From Cladochytrium replicatum (Eukaryota > Chytridiomycota > Chytridiomycetes > Cladochytriales > Cladochytriaceae), in the NCBI GenBank assembly GCA_025526935.1, contig JAHLKD010000081.1, positions 62,001 through 126,000 on the forward strand: 64,000 nucleotides of DNA, read 5' to 3'. Position numbers and translations under genes: made by a program. Shown here piece by piece: positions 2,967-35,662 of this stretch. The notes under the pieces were generated by a model. The model searched no databases and was not told the origin of the DNA. It saw only the letters and a program-made list of their open reading frames with translations. The first letter of the stretch is position 1, and each line of letters opens with the position of its first letter.

Positions 2967-5900
2967 GGTTATGAGCCCATCGCTCTGTACCTTTACCTGA
3001 TCTCATCGTATGTCAAATCGCCGAAACAACCGAGAACTCTACTCGCTTGATCTTAGCTTAACGGAATCAGAAGCTTGAAGACGACACCTCGAAGCTTACC
3101 AGCAGCAACAGCAACTTCACTCGCCGAGCAGCACTGACACTGACACGTCTGACTTGGCTGACACTCCAACACAAGAAGCACCATCGACCTCTTTGTTTTC
3201 CATTGGACGGTCATTAGCAACCTCACTCGCAACAACCGGGTATCAAGCTCTAGCACCAGCTCAGCAACCAACAGCCCCGGCTACACAAGAACCGCCACAA
3301 ACACAAGTCACCCAATCTCCAATCAACGTTATCGCGATGGCCAGCTCCAGGAGCAACCCCACCAACACTGTGTCCGCTACTACATCAACAAACAACGAAA
3401 TCTCCACCTCCGGATGGTCTCGCCCGCCTAAGCTCCAAGGCCTCAAGTTCCATACCTGGCAGTTCCGAATGCAGTGGTGGCTAACTAGCCGAAACCTCTG
3501 GTATGGAATCCTGGATACCGACCTTGTCGAAGCAGACATGTCAGTCACACAGAAGCAGAAAACGGACAAGCCTTCGCCGCAATCCTGGAATGCCTCTCGG
3601 ACAAGGACCTTGTTCGCATCGAAGGAGAAACTCTCGCCAAGCGTATCTGGACAATCCTGGAAAATGCATACAAGTTAAGTGCTCCTGTCACCTTGCAGCG
3701 GCTCAATGAAAAGATGGCATCGCTTACCAAAACAACCTCCATGCCTTTCGAAGAGTTTGCCATGCAAATTCGTTCGCTCGCTCGGCGCATTAACGCAGTC
3801 GCCAAGACTATTGCGAAGGGTTCGGCCACGGCAGCTGACACTTGGTCTGAAGCTCGCATCATCACTCAGATCCTTAGTGGTTTGGGTGCCGAGCACATCG
3901 GTTTTGTCTCTGCCTGGTACACCCAAGCGGAGAGCGAGCAGAAACTCGACAACCTGACGCGTCAATTGGCACAACTCGACATTCACATGGATTGCCATCG
4001 CCGCCAGCAGGGACAGACGCAAGCAAGCATATTAAAAGCGCAGACCGGACTCTCCGCGCAGCAGCAGCAGCAAAATCAAGGTCGAAACAATCACCGCAAG
4101 AAGGATCCTCGTCATTGTCACTACTGTGGCATCCAAGGTCACATACAAGCAGACTGCCGCTGTCGCGCTCGCGACGCTGCCACCGGACAAGACACTCGAC
4201 CAGCCAACATGCGCAACCTATCGGGAAGCAATGGCAACAACAACGGCAACAACCGCGGTCGTCGAAACCAAGCCAACATCGCAAACACCAATAACAGCAA
4301 CAACGGTCTCACCCACTCTGTCGGCTCGTCTCCAAACAATATCGAGACGCCAGCTGCCGCCCTAGCCGCGGATACGTCCGGCGCGCGAACATTCACGCCA
4401 TTCTTCGCGTGCGTCGGATCGAGCAACGACGACCGGGTGACTCAATCACACAGGGAACTTCACAAGGTCCCTACTCTTCCGTCGATCCCTTGTGCTGTCG
4501 ATCGAATTGAGCACACCGTTTTGTCGGCTCGTTCCAGTGACGAGATCTCTTGGTATCTCGACTCAGGAGCGACGACACACATCTGCAAGGATCGTGCAGC
4601 GTTTGCCAATCTCCGGAGCGTTCCTCCAGAGACTATCCTAGTCGGGAACAACGAGACGGTCACTGTCACTGAACGAGGTTCGGTCAAACTGATGTTTGAT
4701 TTGAATGGCAGAACTAACAATCTTGACCTTACCAATGTATTTTACGCCCCGACTTTCTCCCACAACTTGGTATCTGTTGGTCGCCTCGTGGATGCGAGCC
4801 TGGAGGTCAAGTTTGCCAAGGACGTTTGCGACGTCTGTTATCCGAAGGGGGCGCTTTTCTTTACTGCTCGCCGGGACATAGGCTGCCTTTGGCGCCTACA
4901 ATCTGCTCAACTCTTCGGAAAACCATCCGCCTTTCTCGTCAAGACCACGCAAGCTCAACTCGCTCAGCTCTGGCATGCCTGCACCAGTCACCCTGGTGTC
5001 AACGCCTTGCATCAGCTTCCGCATCTTGTGGACGGTCTCAGTGTTCAAGCTTTCAACGATGCTGACGTCCACAGTTGTGCGTCCTGTCAAGCTGCCAAAG
5101 CGCGCAAACAGCCTTTTCGCCGCGCAACACCACCCCTCGAACGTGTTCATCTCCACCTCGCTGGCCCAATCTCGCCTCCCTCACTCACCGGAAATCAGTA
5201 CGTCGCAGGTTTGATCGACAACTGCACCTCTGGTTGTTGGGTGCTCTTCTCCTCAGACAAGCAGGCTCGTACAGGTCAACACGAGCTTTGACACCTGGCG
5301 ATGACACGCTGAGAGACAGTCCGGACAGCTGGTCAAGTCCATTCGAATGGACGGTGGACGCGAGTTCCTTGGGGAATTCAAATCGTTCCTGAGCCAGCTC
5401 GGTGTCTCAATCGACGTTAGAAGTCGCCACTCCGCAACACAACAGTGTCGCTGAGCGGTTTTTCTTGACCGTCTTCACCGTCGCTCGCGCATTGCTTCAC
5501 CACAGCCAGCCTACCTGCCGAATTCTGGGAAGAGGCCGTACGCACTGCTGTCTACCTGTTGAAATTGTTTGCCGACACGCTCTCTGGATCACAAGACTCC
5601 TTTCGAAGCCTGGTTCGGTTATCGGCTGGATATTTCTCATCTTCGCACTTTCGCGTGCGACGCCTGGATTCTCTTGGTTCCTCGTGTTGGCGGTCTCCCT
5701 CCTGTTGGAGGCAAGTTCGACTCTCGTGCTGTTTGGACCATCATTGTCGGCTACAACCCCAGCACACATGCTCATCGGTTCTACGTCCCATCCACCGGCA
5801 AAATTGTCAAGTCCCACCATGCCACCTTTTTAGAAGATAAGTCACCCGTGACAGAGTGTATTTCGGTGACCATGTTTTCGATTCTCTCGATCGGGCCCTA

Positions 5901-6690
5901 TATCTCCAGTCAGCTCTTCCCCTGCTTTTTGCCTCAACCGCGTATCCTCTTCCTCGCCACTCTGCCATGCTTCTCGAGTTGGATCCCACTGATCCTGACA
6001 CCCTCCCGCCCCACCATTTCGACTTCGACCCCGACAACCGCCGCGGCTCCTCCGCTCTTGCTCCTTTCTCCTCTGAGCTCTTTGCTTTGCAGGTTGCGTC
6101 GTTCTCCTCCACTGCGCAAAGTACTCACCAACGGGCGCACGATCGATTCAAGGCCCGCATTATTGCTCGAGGTTTCACGCAACAATTTGGTGTTGATTTT
6201 GACGAGGTATTTGCGCCTGTTGTCTCGTTTGTCACGTTCCGTCTCCTCGTGGCACTTGCTACCGCGATGGGATGGGTGATGCGAAAGGGAGATGTGAAGC
6301 AAGCATATCTCAACGCCATCTTGATGCACACCATCTACCTCAGGATCCTTCCCGGTTTACCGTTCTCGGAAAATCGCAAGAAAGCCTGGCATCTCCACAA
6401 GTCACTCTATGGACTCCGCCAGTGTGGCCGAAATTGCAACAAGGAGTTCGACTCTAAGCTTACCTCAAACGGATTCATACGGTTACGGTCAGATTCTTGC
6501 GTTTACCTTCTACCTGGTAATGGATTTGCGGAAACAGTCATCATCGCAATATTCGTGGACGACGCGTTGGTCATTGGAACAGCGGAACAGACAAAATATG
6601 CTATGGGGATTCTCAAGCAAGTATTCGACATCACTGAAGATGAGGAGGCAACGTCATATCTTGGAATAAGAATTGAGCGAACGACGGATA
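2967..6690 (+). mobile_element. Ty1/Copia internal region, 5' part (gag to RT), broken
   Basis: Order gag, protease, integrase, reverse transcriptase, which defines Ty1/Copia. Gag with a CCHC zinc knuckle (CHYCGIQGHIQADC) lies near 4.12 kb. The aspartic protease motif DSGATTHIC is near 4.56 kb. The integrase zinc region and CASCQAAKARKQPF lie near 5.0-5.1 kb. RT blocks ARIIARGFTQQ, GDVKQAYLNA and FVDDALVIG lie from 6.15 to 6.57 kb. The coding region is broken in several places. It stops at about 6690, where minus-strand LINE sequence begins; the remaining 3' part of the element lies inverted at 9555-10690. LTR similarity (about 98 percent) suggests a recent insertion. Confidence 0.9.
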
Positions 6691-7423
6691 GGTCCACGTG
6701 GGGCAGGTCGACTAGACGGGGGGCGAGGGCCAGGAGCACCAGAGTTCCCAAGATCGTCCTGAATTGAAGGATTACCATGCAGTTGTCTAGGGGGAAGGCA
6801 CACAGGCGCAGCCACATCATCATGGCAGGAGAGGGGCAACCGGAGGTGAAGGCGAAGGCAGCGGCCTCCCAAAGCGACCCACCAGATCCTCGGCCATATC
6901 ACGACAAACACTAAAAAATTCAGCAGGAGTGTCCCTAGGCAAATGTGCAAGCATAGGATCCAGCATCGCCAACGGATCAAAGGTTGCACAAACAGATCGC
7001 ATCTGAGTGAGAACGACACGGAGATCGGCCAGAGATGCAACACTCGAGGGAGCAGCCACAGCAGCAAGAACCCGGACACCCGGCAGATGTGATCGGGAAC
7101 GAGAACGGGAGCGACCACGGGGCAATTCATGTTCAGCAGGTCTTTTGGCGTGTCGGTCACGTGATCGGAAGTCACGTGATTCGGCATTTTCATCCTCCCC
7201 CATATTCACATCATCAGCCCAGTGAATTGGAGAGGCAGGAGCGGAGAATGGAAGCTGTGGAGCGGAATTTTCAACAGAGGAGGCACAGGGGCGCGAACGG
7301 GCCTCAAAAATCACGGTGCCACCAGAAAGTCCATCAGGGGGCACAGCGGGGGGTGTGGCGGGCCGCGGCATGCAGCGCATCAGGCGGCTGCGCATGCAGA
7401 GCGCTGGGAGGCGGCATTGATTT

Positions 7424-7746: not shown

Positions 7747-9223
7747 TTTTTTTTTTTTTTGAACTTCATAATATGTATTTATTGTCCAACCAATACATAT
7801 CACCCGCTGGTGCAAAATCCAAATACAAGTGTAAAAATACACGTAAATTGGCAGCACATGGGGAGCTGTGCGAGCCGTAGGAAAAGTAAAATGTTTCAAA
7901 ACACTAAGGCATATCCAAATCAACAAAAGCAGACAAGATACAATCAGGAGCTGGAGACAAAACTAGGTCATAACCAAGACAGTTTGACCAAATGCGGTTA
8001 AGTGCACGAAGAACAAGAACCCACTGGGAAAAAGCAGGGGAAGGATAAAAAGGCCGTGGTGAAAGCATATCAATTGCAATGTCAAGAGGTAGGCGGGGAT
8101 CGTCAGGCGGGCCTAAATCAAAAGTAGCAGACAAACTAGCACACAAATGTAGACACACAGAGACATGGGCACGCGACACTTCAGGGGCATCATGACAGTT
8201 CCTACAATAAGGTCGGGGGTTTAGAAACAGGCGGCCAAGCCGATATAGCAGGAACAAACGAAGACATACTGTTGGGAGATGTTGGTGTGGGGGTAGCAAC
8301 AAAGGGTGGCGAAGTTTCAAATTGCGGACAGGGGCAAACGAAACTGCAATTGGTCCATTATGCGCAACAGCTAAAGACTGAAAATGCAATATCAACGGAT
8401 GAAGTGGGAGCACAACAGGCATAGGAACAATGAGATCATTGTGACAAGCGGAAAAATAAGGAGATGAACCATAACCGACTGGAGATGACCGATAGAATTG
8501 CAACACAGCAGCTGGTAACAAAGGGCTGGAATCACTAGACCAGCGAGCAAACATACGTGCCTGAAGGTACTTCAGCCTGAACTCAAAAGTAGGAATTTGA
8601 GCTAACAGCAACAAACCAACACGCGAAGTGGTATGGGCTAGCGAAAACAGACGACACAGTGCATGATAACAAAAACGCTCGAGTACCTGAAGCTGAGCAG
8701 TGGATGGCCGAATAAGTGCTAAACCAAACTCAAGTGAAGGTCTAATAAAAGACAAAAACAACAACCTGGCAACACGAGGAGCAGACCCACCAAAGTACGA
8801 GACATAAGGTGCAAAAAGATACAATGAGGCACGAGCTTTCTCTAAGCGATGATCAATAGTTGCAGCAAGATCAAACCCTTCAATAGTAAAATAGTGACCA
8901 AGGTATCTAAATGAAACCTCTACAGGGAGGGCAGAGCCATGAAGCTTCAAGGGGGTGGGTAACCATTGAGAAGATAACACAGCACACTTTGAAGGTGAAA
9001 ACACAAAATGAGAAGCTAAAGCAAAATCTTCAAAAATTTTCAATGCATGTTGGGCTTGCTCAGGGGTGGCAGAAAACAAAGCTATGTCATCAGCAAAAAA
9101 CAACGAATTGAAAACAGGAGTGTTATAAGAAAACCTAGCAAGATGAGAGGATTCACGACGAAGGAGCTGTGCTAAAGGATTGATAAAAAGTGAGTAGAAA
9201 AACAGAGACAAAACAGAGAAACA
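7747..9223 (-). mobile_element. LINE copy C, 3' half with reverse transcriptase
   Basis: Minus-strand poly(A) (plus poly(T), 7747-7760) marks the 3' end. The reading frame ends at 7904 and runs upstream without interruption to about 9223. It holds the RT catalytic box as FFADDIALFS, a PSKCAVL and ISFRYLGH-like thumb region, and a C-terminal CCHC-like cluster around CRNCHDAPEVSRAHVSVC. Upstream RT blocks, endonuclease and ORF1 are absent, so the copy is 5'-truncated in RT. Its 5' edge abuts a tRNA-Thr-like sequence at 9224. The open frame over more than 1.3 kb indicates a fairly recent insertion. The RT order and lack of LTRs are direct evidence for a non-LTR element; the clade was not determined. 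Confidence 0.85.
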
Positions 9224-9296
9224 GCTTCCTTGGCTTAGTTGGCAAAGCGTGTGCCTAGTAAGCACAAGATCAAGAGTTCTATTCTCTTAAGAAGCA
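9224..9296 (+). tRNA. tRNA-Thr(AGT)-like sequence, probably a pseudogene or SINE head
   Basis: Folds as a full cloverleaf. The acceptor GCTTCCT pairs with AAGAAGC (one C-A mismatch), the D stem GCTT pairs with AAGC, and the anticodon stem TGTGC pairs with GCACA around loop CTAGTAA (anticodon AGT). The T stem AAGAG pairs with CTCTT, and the discriminator base is A. The T loop is TTCTATT instead of TTCRANY, so the B box is off consensus and Pol III transcription is doubtful. It abuts the truncated 5' end of LINE copy C. Confidence 0.6.
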
Positions 9297-9549
9297 ACTG
9301 GGCCTAATTGGTAAATTTTGATTAATTGTTTGCACCTTGAACTGCTGACTTGATGACACAATTCTGATCTACTGGTGCAGCCTGGGCGTTGCTAACGTTT
9401 GTTGCACTTCCTACCCTTCCTTACTAGTGCGCGTAAGCGGTCTATTGATAGCAATGGGCAGAATCACGGTGAAACCCTTTTCTGCAGCCAATCAACATAA
9501 GCAAAATCGTTTAGATAATAGTTCGCAGGAATACACATGCCAATTATTG
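9297..9549. other. Spacer between tRNA-like sequence and Copia target site
   Basis: No gene seen. Could be the body of a tRNA-derived SINE whose head is the preceding tRNA-like sequence; no tail repeat was identified. Confidence 0.3.
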
Positions 9550-9554
9550 ATTAG
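9550..9554 (-). repeat. Target-site copy (ATTAG = CTAAT on minus) at the Copia 3' LTR
   Basis: Reads CTAAT on the minus strand, identical to the five bases before the 5' LTR at 2743-2747. The match supports both LTRs deriving from one insertion. Confidence 0.8.
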
Positions 9555-9773
9555 TGTCGTAAATAGATGGTTTTTCTAACTTCACTAGATTTATTGAGAA
9601 AGATTGTTCTCCTTTTATAGAGCAGAAGCGGCAAAGGAAACATCTAGAAAGTAGGAAAAGAGAAAAGGAAAAGAAACTTTTAACTTTCCAAATCAGGTAA
9701 ACAATCAAGAAAGTGAATGATTCAGTGGCAGATGAACGGTTCAGGTGTAAATAAACTTGTCCGATTTATGACA
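9555..9773 (-). repeat. Copia 3' LTR, 219 bp, inverted
   Basis: Same length as the 5' LTR at 2748-2966 and about 98 percent identical, but on the minus strand. A polypurine tract (AGGGGGAG on the minus strand, about 9774-9781) lies directly before it in the element's sense, as expected for plus-strand priming. Confidence 0.9.
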
Positions 9774-10690
9774 CTCCCCCTACAACTGAACTGTGAAGAA
9801 ACAAACAAGTAAGAGGTCAAATGGAATCACAAAAGGTTTAAATTGAACTGAATTTCATTTTCAATTGAAGACAGAGAGAAACAAGAGAAAGAAACAAAAA
9901 CAGGTACGAGACTAAAAGAAAGAAGAAAACATCACAGTGATCCATTTATCGTTAGTTGAAATTCCAATGAGTGAGCGTAGGTGAGCGAATGTCGGTGCCA
10001 ATAGAGCTTTGGTAAAAATGTCGGCGGCATTGTCCTTAGTTTCCATGTAGATAGGCCTAATTGTCTCTTGCAGGATTGCGTCGCGGATAAAGTGAAAGCG
10101 AATGTCGATGTGCTTAGTTCGTCCGTGTTCTGTCGGGTCTTTGAGGTGAGCAATACACGCTTGATTGTCTTCGAAAATGCTGGAGCCATGTTGCTTCTTG
10201 TGCTGTAGTTGCGAAGGCATAGAACTCGGCTTCCATTGTTGAGAGAGCCACCGAGCGTTGAATTCGAGATCGCCATGAGATGGGTCCACCGTTTGCCATT
10301 AAAACATATCCACCTGTGGACTTTTGTGTTTCCTCGTCTCCTCCCCAATCTGCGTCGGAGTATCCGACGATTTCAAATTGTGCACTCTTGCGGTATTGTA
10401 TGCCGAAGTTTTTGGTACCGTTGATGTATCTGAAGATTCGCTTCGCAGCGGCGATGTCGGCAGCAGTTGGTGAAGACATGTTTCGACTGACTCTGTGCAC
10501 GGCGTGCGCGATATCTTGTCGAGTTCCGAGCATCAAGAACATAAGACTTCCGACAGCTTTGCGGTAAGGATAGTCTTCACTTGTGATTTCTGTGTTTTTG
10601 GCGTTGCTTACATCTTCTTTCGACTCTCCCATTCCGAATTGTTGAAGGATCTTGTCTACGTAGCCCTGTTGATCGATCCGGTATCCATCG
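9774..10690 (-). mobile_element. Ty1/Copia internal region, 3' part (end of RT and RNase H), inverted and broken
   Basis: Minus-strand coding remains of the RT C-terminal region (GSLMFLMLGTRQDIAHAVHRVSR) followed by Copia RNase H, with YSDADWGGDEETQKSTGGYV, ALSTMEAEFYA, DNQACIAH and HIDIRFHFIRD in the usual order, then the end of pol and the 3' LTR. It carries the domains missing from the plus-strand part at 2967-6690 and none that are present there. It is interrupted at least once internally. Confidence 0.85.
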
Positions 10691-11151
10691 TGGTCTCTTG
10701 GCCCAGTACCTGTTCTCCCAGGTGTGTATATGCCTAATACTCCGACAGGCTGTACACTACACCCAAGCTGGTCAGGCAACCAGGGAATGCTGTGGTCAAA
10801 GACATTGGTCACATCAACTCCTATATTCAAGTGAACAGTGCGTGTGGGCATACCTGTGGTCAAAGACATTGGTCACATCAACTCAAAGGACCAAGCCACA
10901 CCACATTCCCCACTAAATGCCAAGATCACTCCACACAGGACCTGCCAAACATGGATATAAATACATGAAATACAAGTCCATAAATAAGAATGAAGAGGGA
11001 TTGACAAAAAAACTCTCAGCTCAAAGAGAAAAATGACAACCCAAAGGATAACCCATATAGCAAACAGTCTGATATGCTAGTTTTTAACAATATGTTATCT
11101 TGTGTGCTGCTTTTCCTCTTGATCCACCCCAAATGAGTGCATCAAGCCCAT
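10691..11151. other. Spacer with a 31-bp direct repeat
   Basis: No gene recognised. The 31-base block starting CTGTGGTCAAAGACATTGG and ending CATCAACTC occurs at about 10792 and again at about 10854. The left edge is the rearrangement boundary of the Copia 3' part; the right edge is the 3' truncation of LINE copy B. Confidence 0.5.
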
Positions 11152-11691
11152 TCACAGACGCCGTGGAATCAGTCTGGTTGTCCCTGTAGATGCCTGGGTT
11201 TTCATCTGCATACCCCTACGATTTGAAGAATGATCACCAGTAGCTAAAAAACGGGCATTGAAATCGCCCAACAAAAGAACAGGGCACGGAGACGACGGGA
11301 CATGTTGAGGAAGTGAAGCAATAAACTCTTCAAGGAAGGGGTCCTGAGCAATACCACATGGAGGCAAATAATACCCTCCAACCAAAAGCCCACGAAATGT
11401 AAACCATAGAGAGGTGCCACCATAACTAGAAACGAGACGGAAATCAGAAGCTCTACAAAGACTGCGATTGATCAAGACTCCCACACCAGCCCGTCGTGTA
11501 CCCGATGACCCAGGAGAAAAACGAGTGTCAAAAATCAAATCTGGAGAAGGCAGCGGGTCTAAAGGAAAAAGGTGTGTTTCAGTCAGGAGCAGAAAAACAA
11601 TGTGATTTGCGCGCATAAAACGAAACAGTGAATCAAGAACTCCAAAGCTCAAATTGCGACAATTGAAGGTACTAACTTGAACACTAATCAT
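11152..11691 (-). CDS. LINE copy B ORF2, endonuclease part only
   Basis: N terminus of a LINE ORF2: an apurinic/apyrimidinic-type endonuclease that nicks target DNA for target-primed reverse transcription. Visible motifs are FNCRNLSFG (strand 1 Asn), LLLTETHLFP (catalytic Glu), GVGVLINR, GGYYLPP and LLLGDFNARF (catalytic Asp/Asn). The frame stops after about 180 residues, beyond which the LINE sequence is lost, so RT is absent. The start codon overlaps the ORF1 stop as ATGA (11688-11691), implying translation by termination-reinitiation, a mechanism known for some LINEs such as SART1. Confidence 0.8.
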   Translation of the reverse strand: MISVQVSTFNCRNLSFGVLDSLFRFMRANHIVFLLLTETHLFPLDPLPSPDLIFDTRFSPGSSGTRRAGVGVLINRSLCRASDFRLVSSYGGTSLWFTFRGLLVGGYYLPPCGIAQDPFLEEFIASLPQHVPSSPCPVLLLGDFNARFLATGDHSSNRRGMQMKTQASTGTTRLIPRRL

Positions 11692-12839
11692 TGACGAAGA
11701 TGGGTTGAGCGAGGCTGACGCGCAATCCCACGGGCACTGTCCAGCACAGTTTCCTGAGCATCCATGGGGAGCTGACCACAGACATACAGGAAAATAGCAG
11801 GATCAGTAACTGAACTGAGGATATGTGCATATCTCTTGTGGACAACTTCCCTGACTGCAGCCTCCTGCTGCTCCAAAGGCAGAGTAGAGGCTCGGCGAAG
11901 AAAGTCAGGGTTTGATTTGTCAGTGGAAGCTTCCTGGGTGGAGAAGTGCGCACGGAGAGCAATTGCGGTTGAGCGAATACAGATAAAGGAAGCAATGTTG
12001 CGACCAACAAAACTGATGTGGCGGATACCACGCACCACCTCATCGCCCAAGAGAGCCCTCAGCATGGTCTGCACAAAGCCGAGCCGCTGTCTCATGATGT
12101 CCTTGATGTACACAGTGGTCAAATCATCCACACGGGCCTGAAGATCAGCAGGTGGGGAGACCAGCAGCGGAGAGGTCGGAGGATAGAATACGACAGGCCG
12201 AGGGCCACAAAGGCTGACATTCAAAGTGGGGTCACGACCAGCAAGGGCAGTCCTGACAGCTTCTGTACGAGATTCAGCACTCAGTGTGGGGAGACTCTCA
12301 AGCACACGGGCACGGGCATTGGCAGCAGCAGCGGCATAAGTGCGTGGACCACGAGGTCCACGTGGGGCAGGTCAACTAGACGGGGGGCGAGGGCCAGGAG
12401 CACCAGAGTTCCCAAGATCGTCCTGAATTGGAGGATTACCATGCAGTTGTCTAGGGGGAAGGCACACAGGCGCAGCCACAGCAGCAAGAACCCGGACACC
12501 GGGCAGATGTGATCGAGAACGAGAACGGGAGCGACCACGGGGCAATTCATGTTCAGCAGGTCTTTTGGCGCGTCGGTCATGTGATCTGACGTCACGTGAT
12601 TCGGCATTTTCATCCTCCCCTATATTCACATCATCAGCCCAGTGAATTGGAGAGGCAGGAGCGGAGAATGGATGGTGTGGAGCGGAATTTTCAACAGAGG
12701 AGGCACGGGGGCGCGAACGGGCCTCAAAAATCATGGTGCCACCAGAAAGTCCATCAGGGGGCACAGCGGGGGGTGCGGCGGGCGGCGCGGCATGCGGCGC
12801 ATCAGGCGGCTGGGCATGCGGAGCGCTGGGAGGCGGCAT
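11688..12839 (-). pseudogene. LINE copy B ORF1 (nucleic-acid-binding protein), one in-frame stop
   Basis: A 384-codon frame on the minus strand from 12839 to 11688 with a single interruption, TGA at about 12372-12374. Copy A has CGA at the matching place, so this is a C-to-T change at a CpG. The N-terminal part is Pro/Ala rich, then WADDVNIGEDENAE, then an RS-rich basic patch; the C-terminal part begins RGPRTYAAAANARARVLESLP and shows no zinc knuckle. LINE ORF1 proteins coat the RNA. Relative to copy A, 244 bp are absent between GCAGCCACA repeats. Confidence 0.65.
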
Positions 12840-18503: not shown

Positions 18504-19304
18504 CTACTGAAAAACCAGGGGAAGTGGGCCCAGAGGGTCCGCAGCATTGATCGAAATCTCCCTGTAGATGTACTGAGTCGTGATGTTTGTTGCATCAGCG
18601 ATATCACCCCCAGTGGTCGAAGGTTTCCATCCGAGGTTGAACGGCAATCGCTCTTCTAGGAACCACTGCTTCAACCAGTCGACGCGCATCTTTCCAGTGG
18701 GCTCATTCCATCCAATGACAAGCTGAATCAAGCCGTTTTCTCGCCAGCACGCGTCGGTCTGGAGCTTGCCCAGTGTCTTGCTCGGGTTGTTTGTGAACGA
18801 GTCGCGGATGAACCAGTGACGGGCCTGCGCGAGCTCCAGAGGCGTGAGGTACTTATTGTCCGAGCTGAACGAAAGGAGCTTCTTGACACGGGTTGCGTTG
18901 ATCTTGGGCTCAGGTGTGAAAAATACGTCGTTGCGCGTGAAGCTCGCATCGTGCTCGATTCGGTTGTGTGACTGTGAGAGAACATCGAAGCTTGCAAGGC
19001 CTGTGTGGCCATTGGGAAGGGTGGTAATTGCACCGAGCTGGGTGGCACCTGCGATCTGGGCGGTTCCCACGTCAGCACGAATGCCGAGGAACTTGTCCAT
19101 GGCAGAGATGATATCTTCAGATGTGATGTTTCTTCCATCGCGAGGGAGGTAGCCGTGATTTGCCAGGGAGTTGAGACCAGGGCAAGGGCTGCGACTGTCG
19201 GTCGGTTTTGGGGGACAGTAGACTCCGACAGGTGGCTCGGAGGTCACTGGGGCCGCCGAAACATATGCAAACGCAACCAAAGCAAAGACAACAAATGATC
19301 TCAT
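18504..19304 (-). CDS. Secreted heme-thiolate peroxidase (chloroperoxidase / unspecific peroxygenase family)
   Basis: Extracellular heme-thiolate enzyme that uses hydrogen peroxide to halogenate or oxygenate organic substrates. Single exon, 266 residues. A signal peptide is obvious (MRSFVVFALVAFAYVSA, cleavage after SAA). The PCPGLNSLANHGYLPRDGR motif supplies the Cys thiolate ligand of heme; EHDASFTRND supplies the acid-base Glu and the metal-site residues (the EHD form marks the short chloroperoxidase-like group; long peroxygenases have EGD). Several N-glycosylation sites follow (NAT, NIT). Length matches the short group (about 240-270). Start chosen because the signal peptide begins there. 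A TATA-like TTATAAAG on the minus strand lies about 45 bp upstream (about 19343-19350). Substrate unknown. Confidence 0.9.
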   Translation of the reverse strand: MRSFVVFALVAFAYVSAAPVTSEPPVGVYCPPKPTDSRSPCPGLNSLANHGYLPRDGRNITSEDIISAMDKFLGIRADVGTAQIAGATQLGAITTLPNGHTGLASFDVLSQSHNRIEHDASFTRNDVFFTPEPKINATRVKKLLSFSSDNKYLTPLELAQARHWFIRDSFTNNPSKTLGKLQTDACWRENGLIQLVIGWNEPTGKMRVDWLKQWFLEERLPFNLGWKPSTTGGDIADATNITTQYIYREISINAADPLGPLPLVFQ

Positions 19305-19339
19305 GGCTGATCTGTTTTTCGGGGAAGCGAGCCGCTTTG

Positions 19340-19352
19340 CCGCTTTATAACT
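19340..19352 (-). promoter_or_regulatory. TATA-like box of the peroxidase gene
   Basis: Minus strand reads AAGTTATAAAGCG about 40-50 bp before the start codon; the placement fits a core promoter with a short leader. Confidence 0.45.
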
Positions 19353-19805
19353 TGGACTGTGACAAATTTGCGCAATTTGTGAAAACAAAATTTGAAATTA
19401 GATCGTAAATTGGGCACCACATAACTGAAAGAAACTGTTTAGCAAGCTTTCGAGCCAGTTACTTCTGGAAGTTTCTCCTTGGGTTGGAATCACTGTATGA
19501 AAAAGGCATTTTAGCTCAATAAATCTGTAGTGAACTACATTCATTTTACGATATTAGATGTTCCTTATCACAAAATTTACAGTTGCACTGCCTGGCGCAG
19601 GTCGCCCCTCTGCCCCTTTGTCTCGCAAAGTATTTTCATTTTCACTCCATGCGACTGCCCATGGAGCCGAGGCAAATTTTTGTACTAATTTGAAGGATGC
19701 ATTAATTAATAATGCTTTTATGTAATATGTCATCTCCCGGTCACACTAATGAAAAATATCCGAACCGATATAAATCGCGGGATGATCACGCTCACGGCGC
19801 CAAGT
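19353..19805. other. Intergenic between peroxidase and endonuclease V remnant
   Basis: AT-rich, no reading frame of note. Confidence 0.4.
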
Positions 19806-24125: not shown

Positions 24126-25100
24126 TGAGCTCCATTTCAACCCGAGTCCACTCTCCTACCACCAATCCAGGACATCCACATTTCCCGCAGAGCTCGCCCC
24201 ATCCGTCGCATATTCGGTGTACTTTAACTGCAGTCCACTCGTCCTCCAGAAACCAAGTGCGTCAATGTGCCCGATCCAACTCGCCAGATCCATCGCTTCT
24301 TCGGTGTAATTCATTTCGCATCCACTCGCTTTCCACCATTTCAAAATATCGATGTGGCAGTTTTGGCGCGCTCTGTCAACTGCAGCACGAGTGTACCTCA
24401 TCTCGGATCCAGTTGCTTTCCACCACTTCAAAACCTCGGCATGACCGTTCACGCTCGATTTGTCAACCGCCTCGTTGGTGTACTCCAACTTCAGGTTATT
24501 GGACTTGAACCAGCGAAGCACTTTCACTATCCCATGCTCGGATGCAAGATCTAAGGCTCGAGCGGTCCATTCCAATTCCAGAATAGTCGACTTTCAACGG
24601 TCCAGCATATTGATGTAGCCTCGTCTACTACCCTCAAGTGTCCGTTCTTACTTGCCCAGTTGATCGGGTGAGCTGTGTACCAACACGTTAAGTAGCCCCC
24701 ATCCGCTTGCGCTGTCCACGGCATTGACGGTACTCTAGTCGAGGGTTGACCGAATTAAGCCATCGAGGATGTGACCGTTGCCGTTGCAGCTTGCGCAGTC
24801 GATTGCATTGGAGTTGTAAGTGAGAGGCAGGTCGAAGCGTTGGTGGAGGAGGAGTGGCTGGAGGTAGCCGAGTGCAACGGCGTCGATGGATATGGCCAGA
24901 GGGAGGAGGGGCTCTCTCATGACGTGAGAAGGCAAGCGGAACCAGATTGAGATCAAAGGCTTGCTTTGGAGCATTGTATGATTTTCCGAAGAGCAGAAAA
25001 ATGCGCACTACGATCTCGAAGGGCAGTGTTGGAATACCTTTCGCGGCATGTCAAAGAGAGAGCGGATCACATCTATTTTCATCCCGTAGGAGAGCATTTC
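24126..25100 (-). pseudogene. Ankyrin-type WW-repeat protein, broken
   Basis: The minus strand encodes about 33-residue ankyrin-like units of the form A.D.AS.NGH.DVL.WWK.SG..L.YTE. Four clear units are open in one frame at 24156-24575, for example LKLEYTNEAVDKSSVNGHAE and CEMNYTEEAMDLASWIGHID. An upstream part (24735-24974) reads LPLAISIDAVALGYLQPLLL and SNAIDCASCNGNGHILDGL, the N-terminal repeats. Stops and frameshifts near 24590 and 24740 separate the parts, and the start region near 25000-25100 is unclear. Same family as the debris at 29880-30290 and the pseudogene at 46920-48345. Ankyrin repeats bind proteins; no partner is evident. Confidence 0.6.
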
Positions 25101-25261: not shown

Positions 25262-28200
25262 TCAAGCTAAAAGACAATATAACTTTGATTCATTGATAAT
25301 GCAAACACCACCTGATTTGTCAACATGTTCCTTTCCTCTCATCTCTGCAGAAAGCCAAAAATACTTCCCACTAAGGCTGCCCCACCCGTCACGATCCACA
25401 CGCAGCAAACTATATCTATTCACATTCCTGGGAAAGTTTACATTTTTCTTACTAAGGACAAGCCCAGTTGAAGCCGACCAAAGTATCTCAGTGTCATGTG
25501 ATTTAGATAGTACTGTAATTCCATTCTCTGGCCAAGAAACTGAATTCACAGAATTGATATGACCCTCCAGCTTCAAGAGCTGATTGCCTGTTATAGCTGA
25601 CCATATTCTCACAGTGTCGTCATCAGACCCAGAAGCAATCTTTGTTTCATCGTTTGACCAAGCGACTGTATTCACAGCATATTCATGGCCTTCAAGTTTC
25701 ATCAGCTGCTCTCCAGTTAATGTAGACCACACTCTCACTGTTCTGTCAAATGAACCAGACACTATCCTTCTAGCATCTTTTGTCCATTCAACTGAAAGCA
25801 CGTGACCTTGATGAGAATCAAGTTTCTTTGTCTGATCTCCAATAGTGGTTGACCAAATTCTTACAGAATCATCTGAACCAGACACTACTTTTGATCCATC
25901 ATTTGACCAACATACAGACTTTACATAGCTACTATGACCCTCCAGTTTCAAAATCTCCTCACCCGTAGATGCAGACCAAATCCGTACAGTCTTGTCTGAT
26001 GAACCAGATGCAATTCTGGTCCCATCAGTTGACCATGCTACTGATTCAATACTGTCACTATGACCATTGAGCTTCATCAGCTCCATTCCTGTTGTTGCCG
26101 ATAATATTGTGATTGACGTGTCAGATGATCCATAAACAACTTTTGTCCCATCATTTGACCAAGCAACTGAGTTCACCAAACGATTGGAAGCCTTGTGCAC
26201 CATGAGCTGTTCTCCAGTTGCTGCAGACCAAACTTTCACTGTGTAGTCATAAGATCCAGAAACAATTTTAGTTCCATCAATTGACCATGCTGCTGATATT
26301 ACTCTGTGATCATGTCCTTTTATCTTCATTAGCTCTTTTCCTGTAGTAGCAGACCACACTCGCAGTGTTCTATCATCTGATCCAGAAAGTACCATTGTTC
26401 CATCTTTAGACCAAGCCACTGAATTCACACTCGAATAATGACCGTCATGTGTCATCTTCAAAAGCTGCTCTCCATTAATTGCTGACCAAATCCTTACTGT
26501 TTTGTCCCATGATCCAGATGCAACTTTTGTGCTATCACTTGACCAAGTCACAGATTTCACTCTTTCACTATGTCCCACAAGCTTTGCCAGAACAGAGTGT
26601 GACCTCACATCAAGGATGATTATGTCCCTGTCTGTTGATGCTGCAATCAAATTTCCATCTGGTGAGTACATAAGAGAAAGACATTTATTTGATTGGTGCA
26701 CCCAGAGTTGTGGGCTCCATGTCAGCTCTCTTCCAATGGTCAAATGAACTGCAGGAAACACTTCTTGGAGAAGAATTTTGTAGGTTCTCCAGAGCTCTGT
26801 TTCAGTAGGACAAAATGCCAATCCTGTATAATAGAGCTGAAGAGGACTCCTTGAGAATGGATACACATAGTATTCAAAAAGTCTGGCAAGATCACTTGTG
26901 ATACTTTGGATATACTTTGCAGCAGATTGTGGATTTAAGTTTGCGTTTGATGAATCAAATGTGAACATGTCGATGCGCTTTCTGGGAGGAGGAATTTCAA
27001 GAGTTGATAATTGTGCAGAGAGTTTCTCAAGTTGTTGTTTGGCTATTTGAATAGATTCAATTATTATCATGACCTCTGCCCAAGACATGAGATGCTTTTG
27101 ACAGAGTTCATTCATTCTACTCAGAATATCTTCACTTATTTCAGGAACACTGAGAACGTGTTCAATCCAATAGCGACAGCAATATTTAACATATTGAGGG
27201 ACCTTCTGCGATACAGCAGTTGGGATCTTGTCATACATATTTTTCTCGCTCAGATCTGCCATATTAGGATGAAGTTCTGCCCTCATAATATCTAAACATT
27301 GCTTGACAATCAATCTCTCATAGATTGAAACATCAATAAAAAATCTGATATCTGTGCACCGATTAGAGTTGGACAAGAAGTCACCTACACTCTTGTGCAT
27401 GAATTTGACTCCCCCGCTTGACATGATTTCAACCAAGAAACGGTAGCGGAGTAATTCTGCTGATATAAATGTATCTCCAATACTCAAAAGTTTTGCCAGA
27501 ACATTGAGAGGTACAGGCTCTCGAAGAACACAAACGATTCCAAATACATGTCTGAACATTTCATCTGACCCTCCAGCATTTACAAGTGCATTCTCTAAAA
27601 GCTGATGGTACATTGAGTCGACACCTTGTCCCTGCGCTGATATAATTAACATTGTTTCTGTTTCAGTCTTTGGTGATTTTGATCGAATCAAGTCACACGC
27701 AAGACGCATCCATACAAAAATCCCATCTGCAGCTGCACTAAGTTGATCAACTGCCTCATGGAGAAGTAGTTTGTTTGTTCCCAAGTAAGTTGAAAGCTGC
27801 TTGCGCGCATACATTTTCATGTCCATCAGGTTCTCTGCATCAGTTGGACGAAGTTCAGTGCAATGAATATCCTGTAGCGTGGCATAAATATCAGGCTCAG
27901 GTCGACCAGTAATCAGAAGCTTCAAATTCTTCGGTGCATTGTTGGCCGAATTAGCAAGAGCTGATAATAACCTCTGTCGATAACCACATTCATCAAGGGC
28001 GTCCAAGATGATCACAACTTTATTGCTTAGTCCATCTTTGCTGTCAATAAGAATGCGGAGAGGCTCAAGCAAAAGTTGGTTGAACTTATTCACGATGTCC
28101 GACTCCAATAACGACTGTTTGGATTTAAGATCACTTCCATGGAGCTTTGTTAAGTACTCTTTGACGAACTTGCTCGACAAGCTTAACTGATAGGCAATTG

Positions 28201-29613
28201 ATTCAACAATTCGGTGGGGATCGTTTTTCAGGCTGTCGTTAAATTTGCAGTAAAACTGCGCTCCAAGTGCAACATTTGTTGGCGGCTTTATTTCCAAAGA
28301 ATGCCGTGTGTGCTCTGGGAGCGTGTTGCTAAGGTGTGCTCCAACGAACCACGCCATCACTGATTTCCCAACACCAGCTCCTCCACGGAGCCACATAACT
28401 TGACTGGCTTGTGGATCTTCAATCCACGAACTTATTCGGTCCAATAGCCAATAGCGCGTTCCGCTCACGTACGACTCGGCGTAACCCTTCAGATCAGGCA
28501 CGAAATCCACAGGTTTCAGCCAGTCTTTAAGGAGGTCAGGTTCAGGGGTGTTCTCGGGATCATGCGGCACATTGGAGAAGGGTCCATCTGAAAGTCGCCT
28601 CGCAATCTGACGTTTCAGGGTTTCAATCTGCTGCTGCCATTTGGGGTCATTAGGTTCCACTTCTGCGAAATCGACAAACAATAACCCGGCGGTCATTAAG
28701 CCAACCGCGCCTATTTCAGCAAACGTCTGTGAAACAGGCGCATTCGGTGAAGGTTTCCAGAGCAGGTTCGGCACCATTAGCTTTTGAAGAGTTCTGGCAT
28801 ATTCAATCTCGGAAAGACAATTGTTTGACCTCTTTTCGAGCAGGCGGGAATCAGCACAGTCATGGAGAGAAATGATAGGAATGAACACCCTACCGAATAA
28901 TTCAGAGTCAAGCAAGGTGCAAAGATTTTGCTGTTTTTCACAGCTTCGGCCATTCGTTTGTATATATCTCCGTGCATTTGGTCCAAATCCATCCACACAC
29001 TATACCCGCTCGCGACAAGATCATCGTAGATACGTCTGACCTTTTCTTGACTGTCCCATCTATTGTTCAACTTTAGTCTCAACCTTCCTGAAAGTGGAAA
29101 AGTCACATTTCACGTACTGGTACGACAGCATCAGATCAAAGCTCGTTCCCGCAGGAAACTCAAACTCCGTCAAACGTTTGCGCTCGTTTATGGGGCTGCC
29201 GATAACCGGGGTGGTTGGATGAGTCCTCGGAGGAGTGATCAGCTTGGAGTCAGCGCCACCAGCCGACTTGAACTCAACTTCAATCGTCGGGATCGGCAAC
29301 GATATTCCAGGTATTCGACCATTGATCAGGTCCACAATGTCACGATCATTCAGACGCTTCGCGATACCGCTGATCCGCAGAATGAGGTGGAAATCGACAT
29401 CTCCAAGTTCGCAATCCTCTTTCACCTGGAAGAAAAGTTGAACGTTTGAGCGTCCGACAAGTTTGCGAAAAACGAAACCTGCTTCTTCAGGTAGTTCAGA
29501 TTATGAGTCTCTGCTTCGTAGAAAGTAACGATGACTGCATTTCCCGGGTATTCGGCACGAACATCGAAACGTTGGTTCTGGGGTTGCAGAGGTTCAGACT
29601 GAGCTTGACCCAT
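25262..29613 (-). CDS. TIR-NACHT-WD40 receptor (fungal NLR), N-myristoylation signal
   Basis: STAND-class NTPase of the NOD-like receptor kind. Exons 29613-29479, 29425-29118, 29059-28894 and 28831-25262 give 1392 residues; all three introns (53-62 nt) keep frame. Residues 1-7, MGQAQSE, form an N-myristoylation motif (Gly2, Ser6). Residues about 140-255 are a TIR domain: FDLMLSYQWDSQEKVRRIYDDL, GYSVWMDLDQMHG, SKIFAPCLT and NNCLSEIEYA, with a Glu where NADase TIRs have their catalytic Glu. NACHT follows: Walker A GGAGVGKS at about 350-358, Walker B VVIILDALDEC, then LKLLITGRPEPD. From about residue 910 there are ten WD40 units (VRIWSA/VKVWSA ends) of high mutual similarity. Fungal NACHT-WD40 proteins act in allorecognition and regulated cell death. 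TIR as effector is unusual in fungi; most carry HeLo, Goodbye or phosphorylase domains. Start taken at MGQAQS, the only Met in exon 1 with a clean splice. Ligand and enzyme activity unknown. Confidence 0.88.
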
Positions 29614-30765
29614 CGCTTGATGATCCTTGGTTTGTTGTGTGTGGTATGTGGTGGCACCTGTGTGGCATTGGGGTGAGGGTTGCCCGGTGGTTGGCCCGAC
29701 GTGGCACCAGCCGAGACATGGGCGTGGGTATCGGATTGAGGTGTAAAGATGGGAACATGGATTTTTGCCCTATTATTGGATTCTAGTGGATCTTGAGCTG
29801 ACGAAGTTATACAGCGTGTGTGTTTTTACATACGTGGAGAGAGATCTCAGTTTCGTGATAGTGATTGTTTGATCCTAAGATGCTTCAAGATCACATTGAA
29901 CCAGTCCGCTTTCTTTCCACCATTTCACCACATCTGTCCGTCCATACTCTCAGCCCATTCCATCGAATTTTTGCTCCGTTCCAACTTGACGCAGTCTATC
30001 CACTGTTCAAGCATAACGGGACATGTGGACGTCCTCAACTGATGGAAACGAAGTGGGCTCAAGCTGGATTATTCCGACCTCGGCATCTATGGTCCCAGTA
30101 TGAGTGGTCGCGTGAATGTTCCTGACTGGTGAAAAAGACAGCGGACACAAACTGGACTAGGGCCACATATGTTTGGACGGTGCGAGCAAGAAAGGACTTC
30201 GAGTGGGCTCAAACTGGTGTGGACATATCAGGCAATGGATGTAGCGAGCTGGTACAACACTTTGACATGCTCGAATGGTGGGAGTCCTGGTTCACATCGG
30301 AAGTGTGAGAAGAGTTCTTCCTCGGAGGATGATGATTACAATAATGGTTGGGAACAGGCAAGCTAGGCAATCCAGGCAAACCAACAACGAGAGTAGTGGA
30401 TATCCATCCAGCACCATTGTGATCTGCACTCTCAATATAAGTCTTGTTATTTTTTAACTGTATGATCCGTGGCTGATTCGAGTTTGTGTTCCAACACTCA
30501 ATTTGAGAGAGTGAGAGACCACCGGTTTGCGATCGCTGGCACACTACACAACACAGAAAAATCACCATATCCATTCTATCAAGAAGGTGCGTAGCGTATG
30601 TCTCGATCGGTAGAGAGGAAACATGGTGGTGCGCCTAGTTCCATCCTGTACACTCCTTTGCCCAGCGACCATCTTCCCTGATGCAGATGAGCTATGCACT
30701 CATGCACTGCCAACTCTCTTTTCTATTATTCAGATTCACAGCACGAATACCCCCATTTATTCCCG
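29614..30765. other. Divergent spacer between the receptor and SLA1, with ankyrin debris
   Basis: Minus-strand ankyrin-like remains (VVKWWKESG-type) at about 29890-30000. Plus-strand remains follow at about 30000-30290 (GHVDVLN, WKRSGLKLDYSDLGIYGPSM, GRVNVPDW, then ...DMLEWW), with stops in every frame. Promoters of both flanking genes must lie here. An upstream SLA1 exon before 30766 is possible, since a TTATTCAG acceptor-like site lies near 30735. Confidence 0.45.
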
Positions 30766-33700
30766 ATGAAAGTACGAAGAGTGTGTCGGGCGCTGTACGA
30801 CTATACCGCGCAAACCGATGAGGAAGTCTCGCTCAAAGAGGAAGATTTGGTCTTTGTGACCGACGACTCCGACCCCGACTGGTGGACGGTGAAAATCAAT
30901 GCCAAAGATGCATTTGACGATGGAGGACAGTTGCTTGTGGGGATTGTCCCCGCCTCGTACCTTGAAGAGGTAATTTTCCAAGTGTGCTGACGTATCGCTT
31001 CAAGCGATATTACTGGCTGTTTTATTGATTGGAGTGGCCTGAAATTTTCCGCTTGCCAAGGCGGACGGACTTGCGAATGTCGTTGCTTTGTATGCCTACG
31101 AGGCACGAACCGACGAGGAGCTGACCATCGACGAAGGTGTCCCCCTGATAGTTTACGACAATTCCAACGACCAATGGTGGCTCGTGTTAAATGGAGACGA
31201 GGTTGGGCTGGTTCCGGCCAGTTACGTCGGTGAAGGGGTGAGGATTTATGAACACAATTAGAATTTTTCTGATTCGATAGCACATTTACGCAGGGAGAAG
31301 AGGCTGCCAGCCCTGCGGTCGCCCCAGAAGCCTATTATGAAGCAGAACCCAAATCTCCCACGATTGATCCATCAGCACAGAAGAATGCCTTGCTCTCAGC
31401 TTTGGGCCCGTCTGATATTCCCAAGCGTCCATCAGCTCCAGCTGAGGAGACTGGACCTTCCGACATTCGATACTATGCTCTAACCGTGAGTACCCGCTCA
31501 CGGCAATTTGTTCTGGTTCTCTAATATGCTTGTTCTCAGAGGATCGACAAGAAGAAGAAAAAGAACAGCATCAAAGGATTAATTGGATTTGATGATGACT
31601 ATGTCATTTACTTTGTTCAAGCGAACAACAAGGTTAGGATTGCTCGTCTTGTGAGGGTCTCGATCGAGCTCAATGAATATTCTTTCAGAAAATCATTCAA
31701 AAGTGGCCGTACAACTCCCTGTCCCGGTACACCGAGAAAAAGGGCAAGAGGGTCACGCTCGAGTTTGGATCCCAAACATTTGACTTTGAAGGTGACAAGA
31801 GCGAGCTTGCTGCCTTTGCCCAAAAGCTAGAGGAGTCCAAAACTAGGGTACGTCGGCTTATCGAAGCAGAGTTGACGGGTGAAATAATTTCCGCTTCCGT
31901 AGAGCAAGATCTCTGCGCCGATCCATTCCGTTGCTATGCCTGAGTCGATGACAATCCAGATGCCACCCATGCCACCCAAAGCCGGGGCTCCGTCATCACC
32001 CATCTCTCCTGCAGCGCGTCCGATCTCACCCCCAACCGTATCTGCACCTCCGCCCCCGGTCGGCCCATCCCCTGCTGCAGCTGCTGCAGCGGCCCCGAAG
32101 ATTGCGATTGCACTGTACGACTACGATGCTCAAGAGGACGATCAGCTCAACATTCGTGAGAACGAGAACTTGATGGTGCTGGACGACTCGGACCCCGATT
32201 GGTGGTTAGTGAAGAAGGTGTCCAAGGCAGGAGGTGAAGGTGTGGTTCCTGCCACGTACGTTCAGGTTTGTCGTGTTTGTTACTTGCTTTTTCGTGAGAT
32301 TGACACGGAACGGTCGATCAGCTCAAGCAACGATTGCCTTCAGTTGACGATCCGGTCCCGTCACCCGCAACACCTCAGCGACCGTCTCTTCCGGATCGTC
32401 ATAATCAACACCAGGAGCAAGCATCTCCGATGATCCTTCCCCGTCCTACTCGGGTATGAGAGAATCGCCCGTCGTTTTGCCAGTACTTATGTTTGCTTAA
32501 TTTTAGGTGGAGGAGTACGACGAACCGGAAAGACCAGCTATACCCACACGCCCGGTTCCGACCGTTTTACCATCTCGCCCGACTTTGCCTGATCGACCGA
32601 CCCGTGACGATGGTGCCCCAGCGCGACCACCGCTACCCTCTCGGGACCACCGAGTAAGCATTTGGACTGATCTCCAAAACGACATGAGCTAAACGATATG
32701 AATGTAGGACACAAGCCCTGTTCGTCCGACATTGCCAGGTGAGATCGAGAAGCCACTCGATAGTTTTGAAACTGACCTTCCTTTCAATCGTGCACAGCCC
32801 GAGATGCGAGACCGGCGCTTCCATCCGGCCGACCAGCGACACCTCAGCAAGACAAAAAAGCAGGTGAATGTATGTATTGATGACGAATGCTCCATATTGT
32901 ATGCTGATCACCATTTGAAGTCCCTGATCCTGTCAATGTGCGCATGTGGACCGACACCACCGGCGCGTTTAAGGTCGAAGCAGAGTTCCTTGGCGTGGTT
33001 GATGGAAAGATCCAGCTCCACAAGGTCAACGGCGTCAAAATCGCCGTGCCGTGGGAGAAACTCGACCAGAAGGACCTCAACTTTGTCAAAGGCATCACCG
33101 GAAACCCTAACATCTTTGGTCCCGACAAAACCATTGCACCTGCACCGGGAAGCGGTGGCAAACCCTCGTACACCTACAACGGATTCGACTGGCGCGAGTG
33201 GCTCGAGAAGTCTGCGTCGATCAACCCCGAAGACGCTGAGCGCTATGCGCGCAAGTTTGTCACGGAGAAGATGGACCGGACGCATCTTCCTGATCTCGAC
33301 CGTGATCTGCTGAAGGGGTTGGGAGTCAGCGAAGGCGATATTGTGAGGATCCGGCGAGCTGTGCCTGGATCGATGGCGATTACGTTGACGCCGCAGCAGA
33401 AGCAGGCTGTGATGGAGAAGGAGATGCTGGCACAGGCAAAGAATTTGAGTCTTTTGGATTCTAAGCTTGGTCAGCGTGTTCAGGTATGCACTAATGAACA
33501 TGGCAAAATCTTGCTGGCTTTTTATGGGGTTTAATCTGCAGAGCGAAGCAGCTAAATCCGACCAGATTCAATCGGATGAGGATCTGGCGAGGCAGTTGCA
33601 GGAAAATGAATACCGTGCAGCTGGCGTCACACCACCAAAGATTGTGAAGAACACAAGCACGCCGCGTCGTCGTAAGAACTCAAAACGTACCTCTTGACTG

Positions 33701-35594
33701 TTTAAATGACAACATTTTGTTCAGCTTCCGGGAACCGTTCAGCTTCCACATCGTCAAACATCAACCCACAGACTCTGTCTCTAGCAAAGGAGATTCTTTC
33801 TGCTAGCAACACTATCCCGAAATCAAGCTCATCCTCAACCTCTGAGAACAAGAAGTTTGGAGCCGGCTCGCCTTCTTTGGGTGTAGCCGCTCTTGCCGCG
33901 AACAACAACACTGCAAAGAACGACCCCTGGACAGTTACTTCAAACGCGTCTCCGAAACCGAACCCCACTTCACTGCCCGCTGGGGTTCCGACAAGCGTTC
34001 CGCTATCGGTTCCTGGGTCAGTGGTGGGTCTGCCGACGCCTGTGCTGACGGGTGCGGCGAGTCAGACGATGCCATTCCCGGCTTCGGTGCCTTCATCCGT
34101 TCCGTCAACCGGATTTAACCCGACGCTGCCGATGACAACCCCTGGAATAGGTCTAGGTGGTTTTGGAGCAACACCAGCGTTGGGTCTTGGTGCGACCGGG
34201 TTCGGCTCGCCTGGGCTGGGAGCTGCGGGACTTGGCACTACAGGCTTGGGAACTCCCGGGCTTGCCGCTGCTAACTTGGGAACACCTGGTTTGGGAGCTG
34301 CCGGCTTGGGCACAGCTGGTTTCGGAACTGCTGGACTTGGTGCGAACTTTGGAGCGTTTGGCGGAGTAGGTGGCCTCGGAACGGCTGGATTGGGCACGGC
34401 AGGTTTCAATCCCGCCCTCGGTCTGACAGGTTTGGGCAGCGCACCTCCCCCGATGCCATCGTTGGCGACCAAGCCTATTGCGCCGCTCTCCGCTCCACTG
34501 ATCCCTACACCGCAAGTTGCGCCATCCAGCACATTTGTTCCGATTCCAACCAGCCGACAACCAGCTCTCGGGGGTATGGGAATAGGCGGTGGAATGAACC
34601 TCGGTGGGGGGATCGGAATGGGCAACACAGGCGGTGGAATGGGAATGGGCAATGTGGGTGGGGGGATGGGAATGGGAATGGGCGGTGGAATGGGCGGCGG
34701 GATGGGGATGGGTGGAATGGGAATGGGAGGAGGGCCAGTTACCACACTGAGCAACGTCGGACCGGGCGGAGTGGCCAAACCAGATTGGAACCAGGCTAGT
34801 AAGTGCTTTGTGGAAACCTTTAGACTGGTATGCTGACTTTCTTTTCAATCTAGCACCTCAGAACCCGTTCCCGAATGCACGACTCGCGCTTCCACCAGCT
34901 ACCAGCAACGTCAACACAAACAGTTCACCAGGTATATAATGTTGATTCGGCCAACATTTCGTCATTTGACATTCAAGTTTCTCCTTCTTAGACCCATACG
35001 CTGCTTTCAAGACCATCGATCCTAAGAATGCATCTGTTTTCACGAACCCCGGGCTTGCGAACCAAAACAACAACAGTTTCCCTGGAGCAATGCCATCGGG
35101 TTCGTCGTTTGGCAACATGGGCATGGGGAACAACGCGATTGGTGGAATGAACGGAATAAACTCCACCCCAGGATTCTCAAACATGTCAGGCATGTCGAAC
35201 TCGATGAGAATGGGAGGATCGCCCAACATGGGCATGGGCAACATGGGCATGGGCAACATGGGCATGGGCAACATGGGAATTTCGAATGGTATGGGTATGG
35301 GTGGGACTGGTGGGCTAGGGAATACCGGGATGGGGGCTGGCGGGCTAGGAAATACCGGGATGGGAACTGGAGGGTTTGGTGGAATGGGGGGTAATATGGG
35401 GATGGGTCAAGGTTCGGGTAATATGGGGATGGGTCAAGGTGGTGGTAATATGGGGATGGGCGGAATCGGTGGGACTGGCTTTGGAGCGGTTCCTGGATTT
35501 GGTGCCGCGGGATCGACAATAAGTGGTGCTGGCGGAATGAACATGATGCAGCAGCAACAGCTTCAACAACAACAACAGCAACAACAACAACAGC

Positions 35595-35625
<31 letters not shown>

Positions 35626-35662
35626 GCAACAGCAGTTTGGAATGGGAGGCTATTATCGCTGA
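30766..35662 (+). CDS. SLA1: SLA1 actin/endocytosis scaffold, about 15 exons
   Basis: Adaptor of clathrin-mediated endocytosis that links cargo and Las17/WASP to Arp2/3 actin assembly at cortical patches. Exons 30766-30969, 31061-31237, 31294-31485, 31540-31632, 31689-31847, 31903-32265, 32322-32453, 32507-32653, 32708-32738, 32798-32863, 32921-33483, 33542-33671, 33725-34798, 34854-34931 and 34992-35662; 1359 residues. SH3-1 begins CRALYDYTAQTDEE, SH3-2 VVALYAYEARTDEE, SH3-3 IAIALYDYDAQEDDQ (about 335-393). The SHD1 cargo-binding domain has VRMWTDTTGAFKVEAEFLG (about 524-590). SHD2, a SAM-like domain, has FDWREWLEKSASINPED (about 608-670). Pro-rich PxxP stretches lie between. The C-terminal third is Gly/Met/Leu repeats ending in polyglutamine. 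The start at MKVRRVCRALYDY is the nearest to SH3-1; an upstream exon is possible. Confidence 0.92.
34160..35640 (+). repeat. Coding low-complexity repeats in SLA1: GLG(A/T)xG, GMGMGG and polyQ
   Basis: From 34160 the frame encodes tandem LGTxGLGxxGL units, from 34560 GGGMGMGN-type units, from 35100 MGNMGMGN units, and at 35548-35637 a CAR-repeat polyglutamine tract of about 28 residues. These low-complexity tails are typical of Sla1/Pan1-type endocytic proteins and may drive condensation (inference). Confidence 0.85.

Follow-up and report, generated by a model that had tools for sequence, protein, structure and literature searches.

A TIR domain at the head of a NACHT-WD40 receptor gene in the chytrid Cladochytrium replicatum

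Do fungi use NAD cleavage by TIR domains, as plants, animals and bacteria do? This question is raised by a receptor gene found in the stretch of DNA analysed here (64,000 nucleotides; hereafter, the window). HET domains are the main basis of fungal immunity, and to our knowledge their TIR-like activity has never been demonstrated. A fungal receptor carrying a bona fide TIR domain with an intact catalytic Glu would be a clean test protein for TIR NAD cleavage in fungi.

The gene is complete. It lies on the minus strand, as do all receptor features given below, runs from 29613 to 25262, and consists of four exons and three introns encoding a protein of 1392 residues. The introns are 53, 58, and 62 nt long; each is of the GT-AG type and none has a length divisible by three, and the joined exons form one frame without an internal stop. 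The coordinates, motifs, domain order, and in-phase introns described in an earlier note on this DNA were all found in the sequence. Exon 1 (29479–29613, residues 1–45) starts with the ATG at 29613, which has a purine at -3 and G at +4, and is followed by intron 1 (29426–29478, GTTTCG...TTCCAG). Exon 2 (29118–29425) encodes the remainder of the N-terminal segment and strand 1 of the TIR domain (FDLMLSYQ). Intron 2 (29060–29117, GTACGT...CAATAG) lies within the TIR domain, whose middle part is encoded by exon 3 (28894–29059; WDSQEKV...VWMDLDQMHG...KIFAPCLTLNYS). Intron 3 (28832–28893, GTAGGG...GAAAAG) leads to exon 4 (25262–28831), a single open frame which encodes residues 204–1392 and the stop codon, comprising the end of the TIR domain, the NACHT domain, a helical region, and the WD40 repeats. 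This exon sits inside an intact open frame of 1245 codons. In codon statistics, the frame used was the best of the six in each of exons 1, 2, and 3.

The TIR domain can be read only once introns 2 and 3 are spliced out. All GT-AG introns of about 40–122 nt from the ATG to exon 4 were enumerated; the 289 candidates gave 656,716 in-frame combinations, 11,239 of which were open models, and these were scored with a profile built from five bacterial TIR sequences alone. The top-scoring models all use the introns 29117–29060 and 28893–28832 exactly. This score places no constraint on intron 1. The predicted intron 1 and start codon are less firmly supported than introns 2 and 3; what points to them is the frame, the splice sites, the codon score, and the fact that the exon 2 frame has no ATG upstream of the TIR domain. 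Joining exons 3 and 4 at the GTAG present within intron 3 (in TTCGGTAG, near 28890) would disrupt the reading frame, and this alternative was therefore discarded.

The TIR domain extends over residues 133–286, approximately (28583–29164), and is split by introns 2 and 3. The isolated domain was matched by Pfam TIR_2 (PF13676) with an E-value of 2.6e-16 and 60.6 bits (cutoff 28), over positions 2–109 of the 122 in the profile. The score with the classic TIR profile (PF01582) was 18.4 bits, slightly under the cutoff of 21.3. The extent first assigned, residues 130–260, was close at its start and too short at its end. The isolated domain was not hit by Pfam HET, even with E-values up to 1 allowed. 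Because HET was undetected, the head of the receptor is considered to be a bona fide TIR domain and not the TIR-like HET domain usual in fungi. In addition, a profile of this domain and five bacterial TIR domains retrieved the solved NADase TIRs Cat1 (2e-18), AbTIR, Roq1, SARM1, RPP1, RUN1, L6, and RPS4. The bacterial rows dominate this profile, and its E-values therefore show the family and not the receptor protein alone. Close relatives of the TIR domain were absent from the viral and prokaryotic collections scanned, as were those of the NACHT region from the viral collection. Searches by tblastn gave no relative in phages and only distant bacterial TIR domains (27–31% identity) in plasmids, and the TIR hits from NCBIfam and PADLOC were all weak and generic. 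No second copy of the TIR or NACHT domain was found elsewhere in the window.

In TIR NADases, the position of the catalytic Glu is on helix αC. In the alignments, this position is occupied by Glu211 (codon 28808–28810), the predicted catalytic residue in the CLSE motif, whose codon starts 21 nt past the 3' end of intron 3. With phmmer, NYSRSNNCLSEI was aligned with NYASSSWCLDEL of the plant TIR domain 7xoz, a match that is weak when taken alone (E=0.079), and Glu211 was aligned with the Glu of the plant CLDE motif. Furthermore, the profile alignment placed Glu211 on the conserved Glu column together with AbTIR and Cat1, as the earlier note had claimed in assigning a Glu to the NADase position. 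This column is invariant within the small TIR alignment. Cys208 (codon 28817–28819) keeps the C-x-x-E spacing of the plant domains (NCLSE and WCLDE, respectively), and the plant Trp preceding the Cys is replaced by Asn. A Cys at the position of Cys208 also occurs in some of the bacterial TIR domains of the alignment.

The NTPase core of the NACHT domain (Pfam NPHP3_N) comprises residues 327–513 (27902–28462) and was detected with an E-value of 5.9e-29 and 101.8 bits (cutoff 24.8). The Walker A motif, GGAGVGKS, is at residue 353 and the Walker B motif, ILDALDE, at residue 478. The WD40 repeats (residues 914–1333; 25442–26704) were matched by Pfam with 263 bits and an E-value of 8.8e-81. The earlier count of ten units holds; unit 1 is degenerate, and nine units are called by Pfam by itself. 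Their mean pairwise identity is approximately 45% at the protein level and 59% at the DNA level, and recent homogenisation of the repeats, as in the HNWD genes, is therefore not indicated. The protein accordingly has the parts that define a fungal NLR, namely, an N-terminal effector, a NACHT domain with both Walker motifs, and C-terminal repeats. The scores of TIR_2, NPHP3_N/NACHT, and WD40 are far above chance, which upholds the proposal that a TIR domain heads a fungal NACHT-WD40 protein. Structure prediction without an alignment, applied to uninterrupted pieces, was too poor to use (pLDDT of 50 for WD40 and 36 for NACHT).

Residues 1–136 (29118–29613, minus strand) look globular, with alternating strand-like and helix-like stretches. 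A family search of these 136 residues gave nothing credible: the matches were KH_PARP14_8 (E=0.07) and a PDB entry (E=0.3). This segment is possibly an undescribed N-terminal module. A ubiquitin-like fold might be guessed from the strand-helix pattern.

As for the neighbourhood, an SLA1-like endocytosis gene adjoins the receptor gene (30691–35662, plus strand), with SH3, SHD1, and SAM-like domains and a long GM-rich and polyglutamine tail; its SHD1 domain, a domain that is essentially fungal, is at 32.9 kb (E=2.6e-28). A heme-thiolate (family 2) peroxidase that looks secreted is at 18504–19397 on the minus strand (Pfam Peroxidase_2, E=4.7e-45). The SLA1-type SHD1 gene and the family 2 peroxidase fit a fungal context. 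Interrupted ankyrin-repeat open frames lie directly downstream of the receptor gene (24156–25050, minus strand), with ankyrin-repeat fragments at 24.2–24.6 kb, and similar-looking pieces are near 30.0–30.3 kb. Ankyrin proteins of this sort make a chytrid source likely. Remains of a Copia-type LTR retrotransposon, with gag, Pol_BBD, RVT_2, and frame breaks, occupy 3489–6767 on the plus strand, and pieces of a non-LTR element, with fragments of an RVT_1 reverse transcriptase and an Exo_endo_phos endonuclease, occupy 7904–11802 on the minus strand.

By analogy with plant receptors, the gene probably encodes an intracellular fungal NOD-like receptor in which WD40 sensing and NACHT assembly would lead to NAD+ cleavage by the TIR domain via Glu211, and to death or defence. 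What the WD40 region senses might be a ligand or a host protein that has been modified. This would release the NACHT domain for nucleotide binding, exchange, and oligomerisation, and the assembly would gather the N-terminal TIR domains so as to form composite sites. These sites would cut NAD+ through Glu211, and the resulting depletion of NAD+ or an ADP-ribose-type signal might cause cell death or a defence response. In plant TIR-NLRs, cleavage of NAD requires oligomerisation and the Glu (PMC9153377). It is from these plant proteins that we infer oligomerisation of the receptor, its NAD cleavage, and the immune outcome; NAD cleavage and a role in immunity or death seem to be reasonable expectations. 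A more elaborate reading, which we consider quite unlikely, combines an undescribed N-terminal domain (residues 1–136, perhaps a ubiquitin-like β-grasp) with both NADase and nucleotide-synthetase outputs via the C-x-x-E motif. If it were true, the receptor would be a fungal counterpart of the plant TIR resistosomes with a regulatory module of its own.

Other explanations should be weighed against the NAD-cleaving receptor. MyD88 and Mal are TIR adaptors that recruit via a scaffold, and a TIR domain carrying the Glu is not always an active NADase. The TIR domain of the receptor might be a non-enzymatic adaptor, such that a NACHT-driven TIR scaffold recruits another TIR or HET protein. NADase activity is absent from some TIR domains and TIR-TIR assembly can signal by itself (PMC9153377), and the Asn in place of Trp beside the catalytic site is in line with such a role. 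However, the catalytic Glu and the adjacent Cys are retained, and the window is without any second TIR sequence; we regard the adaptor role as unlikely. The chance is slimmer that synthesis of 2',3'-cNMP from nucleic acid, an activity proposed for TIR filaments of plants, is the main output in place of NAD cleavage. In plants, the Cys of C-x-x-E, whose spacing Cys208 shares, is tied to 2',3'-cNMP synthetase activity (PMC9153377), but this activity also requires an extended αD region in plants, and the equivalent Cys in some bacterial TIR domains speaks against the idea as well.

The two remaining alternatives concern the gene itself. The exons for the TIR domain might belong to a different transcript from the NACHT-WD40 exon, or intron retention might yield mainly a TIR-less NACHT-WD40 protein. 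The introns were deduced from the sequence alone, retention of any of the three would cause a frameshift, and the catalytic Glu meets the rest of the TIR domain only through splicing of intron 3. On the other hand, the TIR domain spans introns 2 and 3, with its αC helix and its end encoded by exon 4, and these two introns lead the 11,239 open models, which makes this alternative very unlikely. It is hardly conceivable that the receptor is of the HET-domain (TIR-like) HNWD type, the usual fungal form. The HET-NACHT-WD40 proteins of Podospora have an equal architecture (PMC12881547), but TIR_2 matched strongly where HET did not match at all, and the modest identity among the WD40 units is unlike the strongly conserved HNWD repeats.

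The putative NAD-cleaving NACHT-WD40 receptor has counterparts in fungi, animals, and plants. TIR-headed fungal NLRs were reported in Chytridiomycota by Daskalov et al. 2020 (cited in PMC9815663), and such proteins are described as a "small group" in fungi (PMC10197012). On the basis of these sources, the rarity implied in the earlier note holds and the novelty does not. The literature searched, which covers the subject incompletely, contained no report of an assay of any fungal TIR-NLR. The chytrid TIR-NLRs, compared here by description only, likewise have an N-terminal TIR domain before a STAND NTPase. HET-E, HET-D, and HET-R of Podospora anserina share the effector-NACHT-WD40 layout, and their N-terminal domain is remotely related to TIR; the receptor differs in having a true TIR_2 domain, no match to HET, and WD40 units without high internal identity. 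Amphioxus has TIR-NACHT and TIR-NB-ARC-WD40 proteins (PMC2575513). The fusion of TIR with a STAND NTPase is common to these and the receptor, as is WD40 in one class; however, amphioxus is an animal, and its WD40 class has NB-ARC where the receptor has NACHT. The plant TIR-NB-ARC-LRR proteins RPP1, Roq1, RPS4, and L6 also show a CLxE TIR head, a STAND NTPase, and C-terminal sensor repeats, whereas the receptor has NACHT for NB-ARC, WD40 for LRR, and Asn for the Trp before the Cys. Given the earlier reports from fungi and amphioxus, the receptor is a well-supported addition to a known, rare kind, and it helps to gauge the age of the TIR-STAND combination.
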